From: Ilex aquifolium
Taxonomy: Eukaryota > Streptophyta > Magnoliopsida > Aquifoliales > Aquifoliaceae
Reading direction: 5' to 3'
Length of the DNA: 64,000 nt
NCBI GenBank assembly: GCA_951799425.1
Contig: OX637395.1
Location: 888,501 to 952,500 of the forward strand
The position numbers and the translations under genes were made by a program. The notes below the pieces were generated by a model. It ran no database searches and was not told where the DNA came from. It saw nothing but the letters and a program-made list of their open reading frames with translations. Below, one piece after another: positions 9,983 through 54,110 of the stretch. Every line of letters starts with the position of its first letter. Position 1 is the stretch's first letter.

Positions 9983-10160
9983 CTAGTTATTGCATGTGCC
10001 TGAAGGCACATAATAATAAAAAATGGTAAACAATAAATATATTTGTATCCAAAATTAAATCACAAATATAGAGGAGAGATAAATGAATTTAAGCATCGAT
10101 TTGTAGTGGGGGTGAGAGGTGGTGGGCGGCAATGGTGGTGGTAGGAGATGGTGATGGTTG
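9983..10160 (-). mobile_element. Helitron-like 3' terminus with start of a TGG tract
   Basis: Read on the minus strand the end is GTGCC-TTCA-GGCAC (5-bp stem, 4-base loop; plus-strand 9996-10009), then about 9 bases, then CTAG at 9983-9986 next to a T. This is the classic Helitron 3' end. It shares about 110 bp of subterminal sequence with the elements at 36083, 42310 and, inverted, about 13860-13960. A GGT/TGG-rich tract begins at about 10105. The 5' partner is unclear. Confidence 0.65.
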
Positions 10161-14509: not shown

Positions 14510-14731
14510 ATACATTAGATACTAACTCAAAGTGGGTGCAGGGACGATCTGTAAATTCAAACGTCTTGAGTTTAAATTTTGACAACTCTTTGAGGTCAAG
14601 TCATGAGGGATTTTTTCTCATAAATACCCTAGTCCCGTCGTAGATGGTTTACCTTTGATCAGACCTAAGAGAGAATTAGTTAAAATACGTGTAAACTGGT
14701 ATGAACACCCATGACCGTTGAAAAAAAAATT
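14510..14731 (+). mobile_element. tRNA-derived SINE, near full length
   Basis: Plus-strand copy of the SINE family. A decayed B-box-like word CTTGAGTTTAAATTTTGA lies at about 14565-14582. It is followed by the body words CATAAATACCCTAGTCC, GATGGTTTACCTTTGATCAGA and TAGTTAAAATACGTGTAAAC, and the copy ends with an A run at about 14720-14729. Confidence 0.6.
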
Positions 14732-27534: not shown

Positions 27535-27902
27535 TTACTTCTTATGAATTTGAGGGGAAGAAGAAACAAAAAATTAGGTGGATGGACCTTTTTACCCTTA
27601 TTCAAAAATAATACATGGTATATCTAAGTCCAAAAATAGAAAAATTACTTGATTGCCTAAATATACATAGGATTCGAGAAATCAAATTTAAACATGTTAT
27701 CCAAGTTCTAACAATTAGAATGTTTTCGCTTTCTTCCTTCCCGTTTTGGCATACAAGTTTTAAAGGTCCCATATGACTGGTTTGGCCATCTTATTTTAAA
27801 ACATTATGTGTACATTTGAGTACACACCTACCTTTGTAAATAGTGTAGAACGACTTACCTATCATGGGTTGAAACAATAGAACATGTCTTGATTCCTTTT
27901 CT

Positions 27903-28037
27903 TTCTTTTCTTTTTTTTTAACTGTCACGGATGTTTGGATCAATTTACACACACTTCGATTAGTCTTCTCTTTGGTTTGATCAAAGACAGACTATTCATG
28001 TCCGGTGTAAGGTATTTATGAAATAGCATGACCCTAA
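27903..28037 (-). mobile_element. SINE, 3' part, interrupted by a MITE at 28038
   Basis: T run, then ACTGTCACGGATGTTTGGAT, CAATTTACACACACTTCGAT and ATTCATGTCCGGTGTAAGGT, ending ATGACCCTAA at the MITE boundary. The missing half resumes at 32747 (see there). Confidence 0.75.
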
Positions 28038-28456
28038 TGCTCCGTTTGGTATGAAGGATTGAAAGTAGGAAGGATGAAAAGTATGAGAAATACATTTTCT
28101 ATCCCTCAAGGAACGAAAGTATGAATGATACACTTTCCTTCCTTTGTGTTTGGTTGGATGGATAGAAAATAAAAATGACTATTTTTTTTTTGTGCTGGCT
28201 AAGATTAGGGGTGACAATAGAGTTGTGTCGTGTCAAATTCGTGTTGAGTTATTACGGGTTTGTGTCGAACATTAGTCAAACCTAACTCAACTCATTTAAC
28301 TAATTGTGTTGTGTCGAGTTGCGAGTTGACCTGTTTATTTTTATTTTTATTTATTTTTATTTTTATTTTTTAAAATTTTAAAATATATATATATATAAAT
28401 ACATATTTTATTATTGTATTTTTATATGAAATTAATGTATATATAATATATGTATA

Positions 28457-30016
28457 CTAGTCATTACCCGTGCCTGAAGGCACTATACAACAAACAAAAA
28501 AATCTTAAATAATTGCCCAAATTAAAAATAAATGGCCTAAAAATATTCATTCCAATTCTTTTTTTAAATGATTCGAAATATATCGTCAATCATATTCTCC
28601 ATATTAATGGAAGTGTCATAAAAATATATAAAAACTCCCAAAAACAACACCATAGATATAAATGCCTCTGAAAAAAAAAAAAACAAATACTAACATAACC
28701 CATTGAAATTTATAATCTTTAAACAATAAATAAAATCTTGCTCATTTATATGACTCACAAATTTATCACCTCTACTACCACTCAATCTAATAATACAAAC
28801 ATAATTTTAAACTAAACTACCATATTTAAAATTCACTATATCCTCATGTAATAAATACCTCAAGTAAAAAAAAAAAATCTAACAGAATACAATTAAATTC
28901 ACAATCTTTAAATGATAAATAAAATTAATCAAATCTTGCTTATTTATAGAACTCATGAATTTATCACCACTATCACTATTCAACCCCAAATGACACAATA
29001 TAATTATAAATTTAATCACCAAATGTCCAAATCCTCCACATATAAATATACACAGAAACATACACACACACACACATTTCTTTTTTCATTACCAAAAAAC
29101 CCTCATAACCAATAACTATTTTGATTAGAAATACAATAATTCAAGTTTTTAAGATAAAATAATAACAAATTAATGTTTAATTAAAAAATAGGGAAAAAAT
29201 CACGGACATCCTCTGAGTTTTGACAATATTATACGGACACTTCTAGACATTTTATAAATAACACGGAGACCCCCTAAGGCTTGAAATTCATTTATGTTTT
29301 CTTTCCGTCAATATTGCTAACAAAATTTGATATTTTAATCCCAAAACTTTATTATTTTTACAATTGTCATTTTCCAAATTTAGTATCAAAAAAAATTAAA
29401 ATTTTAATAAAATCAAATAAAAAATTGATCTAATTTAGTACTCTAAAAAATTAATTAAATGAATTTTAATATTAATTTTATAATAATAAAAATGAATTTA
29501 ATATTAATTCGACAAAGTTGAATATAAATTGGACAAAATTAAATGTCAATTTTAGATAAAATTATATATTAATTTAAAATATAAGGTTCATTTCGTGTTG
29601 AATATTATTTGGTGTTTATAGTTCATGTGCTATTTTTTATTTTTTTCGAAAGGTACGCTATTTTTTATTTACATTAAGTGTTATTTACAAATTAAGAAGC
29701 AAGTGGCAAAATATATATCGTCAAATATACATAAATTTTGAATTAGTTTCATGGAATAAATAATTGTATAACATGTAGTTTCATCTATGTTATGGAATAA
29801 ATAATAACAAAAATAACACAAGGGAAACGAAAAAAAAGATAATAGTATGAGATGGAGAAAGGGAGAGTATAAGATAGATAGATTGAGAGAGTTATATAAG
29901 AGATAAAAGTCTTAGAGTTGTAAAAAGAATGAAAGTCTAATTAGAACCATCAGATCAAAACGATCTGAGCCGCGAAAAGCTCAAGACAAACCAAGCTAGC
30001 TACTTTATTATATAGA
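28457..30016 (-). mobile_element. Helitron A (1560 bp, non-autonomous)
   Basis: On the minus strand it starts TCTATATAATAAAGTAGCTA (5' end at 30016) and ends with the hairpin GTGCC-TTCA-GGCAC (plus 28470-28483), then GGGTAATGA and CTAG (28457-28460), next to T. No Rep/helicase frame is present, so it is non-autonomous. The interior is AT-rich and strongly similar to the left half of Helitron B. Confidence 0.85.
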
Positions 30017-32228
30017 CTAGTCATTACCCGTGCCTGAAGGCACTATATAACAAACAAAAAAGTCTTACACAATTGTCAAAATTCAAAAAGAATGGGCCAA
30101 AAATATTCATACAAATTCTTCTTTTAAAATGACTCGAAATATATCGCCGATCATATCCTCCATATTAATAGAACTGTTGTAAAAATATATACAACTCTTC
30201 AAACAATACCATATATACAAATGCCTCCGAAAAAAAAACAAATATTAACATAATCCATTGAAATTTACAATCTTTAAGTAATAAATACAATTTTTCTCAT
30301 TTATAAGACTCAAGAATTTATCACATTTACCACCACTCAATCCAATAATAGAAAATAATTATAAACTTAATCACCATATTTTCAATCCACCCTATCTCCA
30401 TGTAATATATATCTCAAGCAAAAAAAAAAAAAAATTACTAACATAACACAATTAAATTCACAATCGTTAAGCGATAAATAAAATCAACCAAATCTTACTC
30501 ATTTATAAAACTCAAGAATTTATCACCACTATCACCATTCAACCCCAAATGGCACAACAAAATTATAAATTTAATTAACAAATTTTCAATCCTTCACATA
30601 TAAATATACACAGAAACATACTCTCGTACATTTTTTTTTGGCTACCAACAAACCTTCCTAATTAATAACTGCTTTTATTAAAAATATAATAATTCAAGTT
30701 TTTATGATAAAATAATAATAAATTAATATCTAATTAAAAAATAGGGAAAAAAATACGGACTTCCCCTGAGTTTTGACAATATTATGAAGACACCCCCTGA
30801 TATTTTATAAATAACACGGAAATCCCCAAAATTTAAAATTTATTACACAGAGACCCTTTTGTCTCCCTTCCTTCAATATTGCTAACGTAAAGTGATGATT
30901 TTATCCCCAAAAAAATATTATTTTTATAATTGCCTTTCTCCAACTTGAGTACCCAAAAAAATTAAAAATTTAATAAAATAAAATAAGATTTGATTTAGTA
31001 CCCAAAAAATTGATATAATTTAGTACCCCCAAAAAATTGATTGAATGAATTTTAATATTAATTTGATAACAATAAAAATTAATTTGATATTAATTTGACA
31101 AAGTTGAATATAAATTGGACAAAATTAAATGTCAATTTCTGACAAAAATATATATTAATTTACAATTTAAGGTTCATTTCGTGTTTAATATTATTTGTTG
31201 TTGATTAAACCAACATGAAATTGACCTTAAATTCTAAATTTTTTTGTTGTATATAAACTTAAAAATTTGTATTTTAACCCATATAATTTAAATACAGATT
31301 TTTTCATAGCATAGCGTATTCTCACTTACTATATAATTTAATTATTCTTTATTATTTTTACAATCAATTTCAATTTTGACTTCAACTTTGAATATTCATA
31401 AAATTCAAGCAAAGTTAAGTTTAAACAAAAATATATACTTTATACTTGACAATCAAATTTAGATAAATTCAAATTCTAATCATAATCACGTCAAACCGAT
31501 AATTGAGTAAACCGGTAAAAAATTTTAACACGAACCATTTAATAAACAGGTAACACGGCATGACTCGTTTAACCCATTTATAAAAAAATAAAAAACAAAT
31601 ATTATTTTAATAAATTTTTACACTCCATTTATTTGCTTCCAGCTGTACTTTCCTCAATTGAAGGAATTCCAGCCAACAGCTCACGTGAAAATCACACCAC
31701 AAATGTTGGTTAAAATGAGAAGTTCACTACCCTTTTTATAGGCAACTGAAGTCTCCCCTCTCCACTCCTTGTCGATGTGGGATTCAAAGAAAAGGAACAA
31801 AAGGCAATTCAATGCCTCAAGGCTCAAAATTTCACTTTCCTACTATTAATATGCTTATTTTTTTTTTTAAATGTTTTTTTTTTTTTTTTTTTTTTTACTC
31901 ATTCATTATTTTATATATATATAATTTATTATTATATTAAATTTATTTAAACGGGTTGACAGGTCTCACCCGAATATGACCCGTTTATTAAACATATGTT
32001 AATAAACCTATACTTTGTTAGCGATAATCCTTGTTATTGTACTATTATTTTGTTAATTTTAAATTACGCGTTTGAACTGTTTATTATATAAATTGAATTA
32101 TACATATAGATATAGATATCAATATAGATATATAAATATGACGGCATATGTTAATGAACTTATATTTTTTTTAGAGATAATCCTTATTATTAGAGTTTTA
32201 ATAGATTTTAGATATATTTTATTTTTAT

Positions 32229-32259
<31 letters not shown>

Positions 32260-32508
32260 ATAACTGTCCAAGTCAATCTCTCCCATGGTTTGAATGGAAA
32301 TGAGGAGAGATAAAAAAGAATGTAGTAGAGTCCTGTAAGGATGTAGATATCTCTCCAATGGTTTGAATGGGGATGAGGAGAGATAAAAAGAATGTAGTAG
32401 AATCCTGTAGGAATGTAGATTAATTAGAATCGTTGGATCAAAAACTTAAAAACGATCTGAGCCGCGAAAAGCTAAAGACAAAGAAATCTAGCTACTTTAT
32501 TATATAGA
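30017..32508 (-). mobile_element. Helitron B (2492 bp, non-autonomous), head-to-tail with A
   Basis: On the minus strand the 5' end is TCTATATAATAAAGTAGCTA at 32508, preceded by A. The 3' hairpin is at plus 30030-30043 and CTAG at 30017-30020 is joined directly to the TC of Helitron A. The first about 1.2 kb matches A. The rest (about 31215-32440) is extra and includes CGGGTT/ACGGGT-rich repeat sequence, a T run at about 31876-31895 and a short duplication of about 73 bp (about 32277-32420, unit with TCTCTCCAATGGTTTGAATG). Confidence 0.85.
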
Positions 32509-32746
32509 TATTAAAAGATATATAGACAAATAAGATACATTTCAACACAAATAATTAACTTTCCATCAACTTTCCTTCCGATTTTGGAGGGATTGATTTT
32601 GGTGAGTTAGAAAGAAAGTTAATTCATCAACTTTTTCATCTTTCCTACTTTCCTTCCTTACTAAACATGATGTTTTATTTATTCCTCCCACTTTTCATCT
32701 TTCCAACTTTCTATCTTTCTATTTTTCCATTGTACCAAACGAAACA

Positions 32747-32810
32747 TAAGAAACTGTCAAAATTCAAATTCAAATGTCTGAATTTATAACTTGTGAACGT
32801 AATTAAAATG
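32747..32810 (-). mobile_element. SINE, 5' part resumed after the MITE
   Basis: Continues the copy at 27903-28037: AACTGTCAAAATTCAAATTC then AATGTCTGAATTTATAACTT. These are the B-box-side words seen in intact copies at 46292 and 53878. The TAA at the junction is the MITE target duplication. Confidence 0.75.
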
Positions 32811-33214
32811 AAATGGATAAGTTTGAGCCATGATTGTCATGGATCCAGGAAAGGCAAATCAATCACAATTAATGGTTTGTGATTCTTGTAGTTGCCTCAC
32901 CCAGATTTGCTAACTACATTGTCCTCATCAAAAAAAAAAAAATCTGGTGAACTGTACAATTAATTAAATTGTACTTGAATTTGGTGATGGAAGAAGAAAG
33001 TCAACAGCGATAGTTTACCCTCTCATCCTATCGGAATTTACCATCTAATCAAATTAAACTATAATTCATAAAATTGGATCAAATAAAAATTCAAGCTCAT
33101 TAAGTTATGATTTAATGGGATCAATTACGATTTATAATAAAAAAAAATTTAATTCTATTAAATTATAATTTTAACTTGTTTAATTCGTAATTTAATTTGA
33201 TAGAATAGAGGTTT
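32811..33214. other. Intergenic, AT-rich
   Basis: No gene or complete element seen. Confidence 0.5.
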
Positions 33215-46291: not shown

Positions 46292-46500
46292 GGGTGATCT
46301 TTTTTTTTTTTGTTTAATGGTTAGAGGTATCTGGGTCGGTCTATGCGTACCTCGATTAATCCCCTCTCTGGTCTAATCAAAGATAGGTCATCCACGCCGG
46401 GTCTAAGGTATTCATGAGGGATAAATCTTTGATGGCGTGATCCCAATGAATTACCAAAATTCAAACTCATAATGTCTGAACTTATAACTCGTCCCTGTAT
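46292..46500 (-). mobile_element. SINE nested in Helitron C
   Basis: T run, then GTTTAATGGTTAGAGG, TAATCAAAGATAGGTCATCC, GGTCTAAGGTATTCATGAGG and CAAAATTCAAACTCATAATG, which is the SINE body and B-box side in reverse orientation. The 5' tRNA head is shortened. Confidence 0.7.
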
Positions 46501-53877: not shown

Positions 53878-54110
53878 AATTTTTTATTTTTTGGTTTAAT
53901 AATCAGGGGTGTTCGGACTAACTTACACGCATCTCGATTAATCTATTCCTTGATTCAATCAAAGACAAGTCATTCACACCAGAACTAAGGTAATAATAAG
54001 AGATAAATCCCTCATGATCTGGCCTTAAAATATTATCAAGATTCAAATTTAAGATGTCTGAATTTATAATTTATTTTTATTACTACTTGAACTACCTATT
54101 GGAATTATAA
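53878..54110 (-). mobile_element. tRNA-derived SINE, best preserved minus-strand copy
   Basis: TTTTTATTTTTTGG start (A-rich tail), then AATCAGGGGTGTTCGGAC, TCTCGATTAATCTATTCC, AATCAAAGACAAGTCATTCA, AAGATTCAAATTTAAGATG and, at the far end, the A-box side TTACTACTTGAACTACC. It serves as the reference for the other copies. Confidence 0.7.

Follow-up and report, generated by a model that had tools for sequence, protein, structure and literature searches.

The repeat cluster around positions 27903 to 32810 is a stack of nested transposons of an ordinary sort, and we read its two uppermost layers, with a probability of roughly 0.8, as serial insertions of related non-autonomous Helitrons. It lies in the window, by which we mean the whole stretch of 64,000 nucleotides of Ilex aquifolium DNA that was analysed (C5:888501-952500; the genome comprises 103 contigs and 800 Mb). 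The original prediction, a four-layer nested stack of a SINE, a MITE and two tandem Helitrons, was confirmed by alignments and by direct reading of the sequence from 27601 to 33200, which supplied the coordinates in Table 1. On the minus strand, the layers follow one another as SINE half, MITE half, Helitron B (32508 to 30017), Helitron A (30016 to 28457), MITE half and SINE half.

Table 1. Components of the nested stack (positions are those of the window)
Feature	Position	Strand	Remarks
SINE-like 3' part, A-rich tail	27903..28037	-	last three bases are the first TAA; once joined, the halves align to three window copies
TAA, left MITE target site duplication	28035..28037	.	direct reading
MITE left part, 419 bases	28038..28456	.	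begins TGCTCCGTTTGGTA; final base is the target A
Helitron A, 1560 bases, downstream (probably older) copy	28457..30016	-	5' TC 30016-30015, 3' CTAG 28460-28457
Helitron A 3' hairpin GTGCC-TTCA-GGCAC	28470..28483	-	13 bases from the 3' end
Seamless CTAG|TC junction, B 3' end / A 5' end	30015..30020	-	recurs genome-wide
Helitron B, 2492 bases, upstream (probably younger) copy	30017..32508	-	5' TC 32508-32507, 3' CTAG 30020-30017
Helitron B 3' hairpin GTGCC-TTCA-GGCAC	30030..30043	-	13 bases from the 3' end
MITE right part, 238 bases	32509..32746	.	first base is the target T; terminates in an inverted copy of the left end
TAA, right MITE target site duplication	32747..32749	.	direct reading
SINE-like other half	32750..32792	-	likeness to window copies stops near 32792

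The outermost layer is a degenerate SINE-like copy, whose A-rich tail appears on the plus strand as a T-rich stretch (approximately 27896-27919). When its two halves are joined, they form one continuous member that aligns to three other copies in the window (53882-54072, 46302-46492 and 14552-14728), with 68-69% identity over 177-192 columns. An A-rich tail at the 3' end, together with copies of comparable extent scattered elsewhere, is what one expects of a SINE, and the A-rich tails on the minus strand would fit this identity. A B-box-like stretch was spotted in the copy by eye only. The break in the SINE had been placed at 28037/32747; the element does stop at 28037, but positions 32747-32749 are the second TAA and the SINE restarts at 32750.

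The MITE has, as described earlier, TAA flanks and inverted ends, the latter 14 bases long (TGCTCCGTTTGGTA and TGTTTCGTTTGGTA, with two differences), and so carries the terminal inverted repeats and the 3-bp duplication by which MITEs are recognized. The re-joined element (656 of its 657 bases) was used as a query in a genome search. All 40 scored candidates, out of 3912 in the first look, matched it at 88-91% identity and each ran straight across 28456/32509; the remaining 12 of the 52 listed matches were shorter pieces. These relatives show the empty site and establish that the MITE was split between A28456 and T32509, as had been proposed. A fifth layer inside the MITE, considered for a GTGTCG-rich stretch from about 28208, was ruled out because the scored relatives align through the stretch. 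The MITE is presumably Tourist/PIF-Harbinger-like, having in common with that superfamily short terminal inverted repeats, a 3-bp TAA duplication and many copies. A second Helitron insertion in the same MITE family was seen at C13:24997060-24997130 (L149), where the 3' flank of a B copy is 94% identical to the first 48 bases of the MITE right part.

Identity to relatives rises inward through the stack, from 68-69% for the SINE (window copies) and 88-91% for the MITE to 94% for the nearest relative of A and 98% for that of B. Since this inward fall of divergence matches the nesting, it supports the predicted succession of SINE, MITE and Helitrons, which the nesting itself shows.

Read on the minus strand, both Helitrons have the form 5'-TCTATATAATAAAGTAGCTAG ... 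GTGCCTTCAGGCACGGGTAATGACTAG-3'. They possess the 5' TC and 3' CTRR ends that are canonical for plant Helitrons, and most of their relatives share TC...CTAG. In each, a 5-bp hairpin stands 13 bases from the 3' end, within the usual distance of about 10-15 bases. Host A precedes B and host T follows A (A28456|T32509), as in A/T insertion without target duplication. The CTAG of B meets the TC of A with no base between them, in agreement with the original reading.

A and B share their 3' half, where identity is about 82% (85% on the tree alignment); at the 5' end, their outermost 60 bases are 93% identical. The comparison originally proposed, 28457-30016 with 30017-31215, took B only as far as 31215; the element continues to 32508. 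Much closer relatives of each copy exist elsewhere: the best relatives of A reach 94, 93 and 92% (40 of 2550 candidates scored), and for B there are 35 further copies of nearly full length at 94-98%, the best at 98% (40 of 4289 candidates scored). In a tree of the 3' half comprising 67 sequences, A and B fall in different clades and are not sisters; their terminal branches measure 0.042 for A and 0.005 for B. Their description as members of the same family is accurate for the ends and for the 3' half, with the two copies in separate clades. Given the low identity between A and B and the closer relatives that each has elsewhere, these sequence comparisons argue that A and B are not recent tandem copies of one another. 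The B subfamily has been active more recently, and B is probably younger than A, nearest-relative divergence being only a rough guide to insertion age.

These features suggest the following course of events. The MITE entered the SINE at a TAA target; a TA-rich A|T step inside the MITE would then have received Helitron A. As insertion occurs between A and T without target duplication, and as the element itself begins with T, host A and element T together make A|T again. Helitron B could then have entered at the step made by the host A and the first T of Helitron A; a new copy at this regenerated A|T would yield CTAG|TC without an intervening base. The regenerated context, ATATA|TCTATA, is near the preferred ATATA|TATATA of the B subfamily, so the 5' boundary of a resident copy would remain a good target. 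We consider serial insertion into a regenerated A|T the best account of the window dimer, and one that is probably correct.

For 36 B copies of nearly full length, the one in the window among them, we surveyed the sequence on either side, the only criterion of choice being similarity to B; this gave 35 five-prime flanks and 25 + 10 three-prime flanks. From these, 13 five-prime and 4 three-prime flanks (of 35 each) were left out where the end motif was damaged or a Helitron lay directly alongside; the remaining solo flanks carried A in 22 of 22 cases and T in 31 of 31. In sequence, the 5' end of the element itself (TCTATATAAT) resembles the right half of the preferred target, and such target mimicry may be what causes the seamless junctions. 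A position model built on these solo flanks scored the 5' boundary of a resident copy at about 1099 and the 3' boundary at about 0.1, relative to a background of 1. An earlier mixed sample of A-type loci and ten B copies (27 and 25 flanks) had given 93% A and 92% T, with model scores of 199 for the 5' boundary and 2.1 for the 3' boundary.

The junction is found throughout the genome. A 29-base junction word, allowing up to 3 mismatches, occurred 408 times in 800 Mb, some of the looser occurrences possibly being TA-rich host sequence, whereas the same word read backwards, at the same length and tolerance, occurred 0 times in the whole genome. Together with the cases that have exact ends, this excludes chance as the source of the junction. 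Genome-wide, 813 exact 3' ends were found; in 57 of them the bases immediately before, on the pattern strand, are TATATAGA, the extreme 5' terminus of a further copy. Two of the 57 are doubtful (C2:43533702 and C6:29419066), with a recognizable 12-base 5' end lying 8 or 18 bases away, which leaves a cautious frequency of 55/813, or about 7%. The class with one mismatch was set aside, as it is polluted by host TATATATA. Within 30 loci drawn from the junction-word matches, a 21-base 5' motif was present at the junction in all 30 with at most 4 differences, 12 of its 21 bases belonging to the search word itself.

Among the first 100 of 124 matches with exact ends, the gap between partners was 0 in 66, 2 in 1 and 4 in 29; the rarer gaps were 6 (2 matches), 8 (1) and 18 (1). 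The neighbours exactly 4 bases apart thus form a second sharp class, in which the spacer is mostly TATA (e.g. L036:496-500, L038:496-500, L143 and L157); the last two are B copies of the survey. The position model predicts more of gap 2 and less of gap 4 than was seen, and a smooth build-up within TA repeats at every 2-base register was rejected because the gap classes are mainly 0 and 4.

When the 36 B copies were inspected for neighbours, 3 had a seamless or near-seamless one upstream (on C12, C1 and C9, the last without TC), in addition to the degraded L117, and 3 had one downstream (the window; C12, without TC; and C13:17071402, in which TC reads TA), in addition to the doubtful L139. The apparent age order in these dimers varies. 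At the window it is as serial insertion predicts, with B upstream and younger than A. The C1 upstream copy has relatives at 99-100%, compatible with the same order, and C9 is ambiguous, its upstream copy having a best relative at 96% and its B partner lacking TC. In the C12 dimer, the nearest relative of the upstream copy is at 92% (40 of 1495 candidates scored) and the 3' half of the downstream copy is 99.4% like window B, so that the older copy apparently lies upstream. Plain re-insertion would give no account of this order; a lost parent, or relatives beyond the 40 scored candidates, could explain it. A rule that the upstream copy is always young therefore had to be abandoned. We also rejected the C9 pair as a second copy of the window dimer, because its order is the opposite one and its A-like copy matches window A at only 81%.

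We then compared partners across 30 dimer loci (window included), taking 1.5 kb from the end of one copy and 1.5 kb from the start of the other, a comparison that can miss sisters if they are long. In no locus did the downstream copy match its partner best overall. When only upstream regions were considered, the partner came top in 2 (L072, where it was the sole match, and L078) of 17 matching loci, the other 13 loci having no match. Partners were nevertheless more alike than shuffled pairs, with 11524 bits summed against a shuffled mean of 5407 (P = 0.0003) and 11 pairs of at least 200 bits against 6.3 (P = 0.0023); a few pairs (L071, L074 and L078) were 93-96% alike. This excess points to shared activity of subfamilies or to a number of old tandem copies, and it speaks against full independence of the partners.

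The seamless junction had originally been given two possible origins, of which a second insertion at A|T fits the locus. The other, rolling-circle read-through or integration of a multimer that made A and B together as a tandem copy, draws support from Helraiser circles, for which exactly this CTAG/TC junction has been demonstrated (PMC4778049, 2016). The excess likeness of partners and the arrays of near-identical units on C4 and C12 also speak for such a process in this genome. For the window dimer it is nonetheless quite improbable: A and B are far less like each other than like their relatives and belong to different clades, and in none of the 30 dimers was the partner the best match overall, subject to the reach of the 1.5-kb comparison. 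A misjoin of two separate Helitron loci in the assembly is a kind of error to which such repeats are prone; here the MITE resumes at T after A28456, the SINE resumes past the MITE and the junction word recurs at many further sites in the genome, which makes an artefact practically negligible.

Several observations do not sit easily with serial insertion into a passive A|T target, namely the age order at C12, the absence of head-to-head pairs, the spacing of the gaps and the excess likeness of partners, and the first three leave room for a more active role of the resident ends. The transposase might nick the 5' or 3' end of a resident copy and the incoming strand join there, in the same orientation and on either side. 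The model would expect head-to-head pairs at about 9% of the head-to-tail number, and a genome-wide search without mismatch found 0 exact head-to-head junctions, compared with the 66 same-orientation pairs at gap 0 among the first 100 of 124 matches. End-directed insertion would also explain why B copies abut partners upstream and downstream equally often, some of the 5' ends being damaged, and why the C12 copy that appears younger lies downstream, at a G|T step; maize lines with the upstream partner only have been interpreted as possible G|T insertion (PMC2267711). Against it, the discordant age order comes from a single dimer, for which a lost or unscored parent of the upstream copy would account, and A|T is the sole step seen at the scored solo flanks of B copies. 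Solo targets disfavour a G at position -2, a bias that lowers head-to-head counts as well, and the head-to-head search admitted exact matches only. As an explanation of the window dimer we regard this as unlikely. The broader proposal, that Helitron ends attract new Helitrons through a nick at the resident 5' or 3' end, giving seamless same-orientation joints on either side, is rather doubtful; if it were true, end attraction would place about 7% of the group's intact 3' ends in CTAG|TC chains, and composite elements could form.

The near-identical arrays differ in look from the window dimer. At C4:11236468-11240858 (L160), three 3'-truncated units of 1451-1487 bases are 98.1-99.9% identical per aligned piece; they are of the C1-upstream type of Helitron, and the A before TC is kept at each joint. 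From its sequence, this array appears to be of the rolling-circle or unequal-crossing-over kind. At C12:23273000-23276700 (L088), tandem units of about 745 bases, some four in number, stand beside a full B copy and alternate two Helitron 5' ends, of the TAGCTAGATTTC and TAGAGCGAAGTT types; in ungapped 300-base stretches they are 75-99% alike, mostly 95-99%.

Adjacent Helitrons at the maize r1 locus were reportedly studied by Du. One pair lying head-to-tail has been described there, with CTAG followed directly by TC and both orders of insertion considered (PMC2267711, 2008). As in the window, the partners differ and consecutive insertion was concluded, re-insertion at host A plus element T being among the two models given. 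The maize case is single, with its order left unresolved and different gene fragments inside the elements, whereas the window offers an age-supported order and many junctions genome-wide. Tandem Helitrons of Myotis lucifugus, with perfect head-to-tail junctions (Pritham and Feschotte, as cited in PMC2267711), were read as tandem repeats, while the window partners fall in different clades. Truncated Helitrons inserted in tandem in plant centromeres, cited in a Fusarium study that also lists tandem insertions for bat, fly, rice and maize (PMC5148889), resemble the C4 array; in the window dimer the ends are intact and the partners have diverged. Preferential insertion near other Helitrons is cited in a 2025 review (PMC12477314), and an AT preference is given for wheat Helitrons (PMC13286980). 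The window dimer is therefore of a kind already known from maize and bat, and is unusually well sampled in this genome. The literature searched, mostly at listing level, yielded no genome-wide frequency of such junctions, which may still be in print. Whether tandem Helitrons stem from rolling-circle multimers or from serial insertion has been debated over the bat and maize cases, and many junctions alongside contrasting near-identical arrays in one genome make a statistical test possible. If insertion regenerates its own target, unrelated Helitrons would have a simple route to composite units.

Two further observations concern the Helitron ends. Weak matches, with 4 mismatches each, to a related Helitron 3' end and 5' end were noted in the window at 9983 and 47951. 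In L078, the upstream copy is 95% identical to the 5' part of B to within about 30 bases of its 3' end, as though a new 3' terminus had been gained by B.
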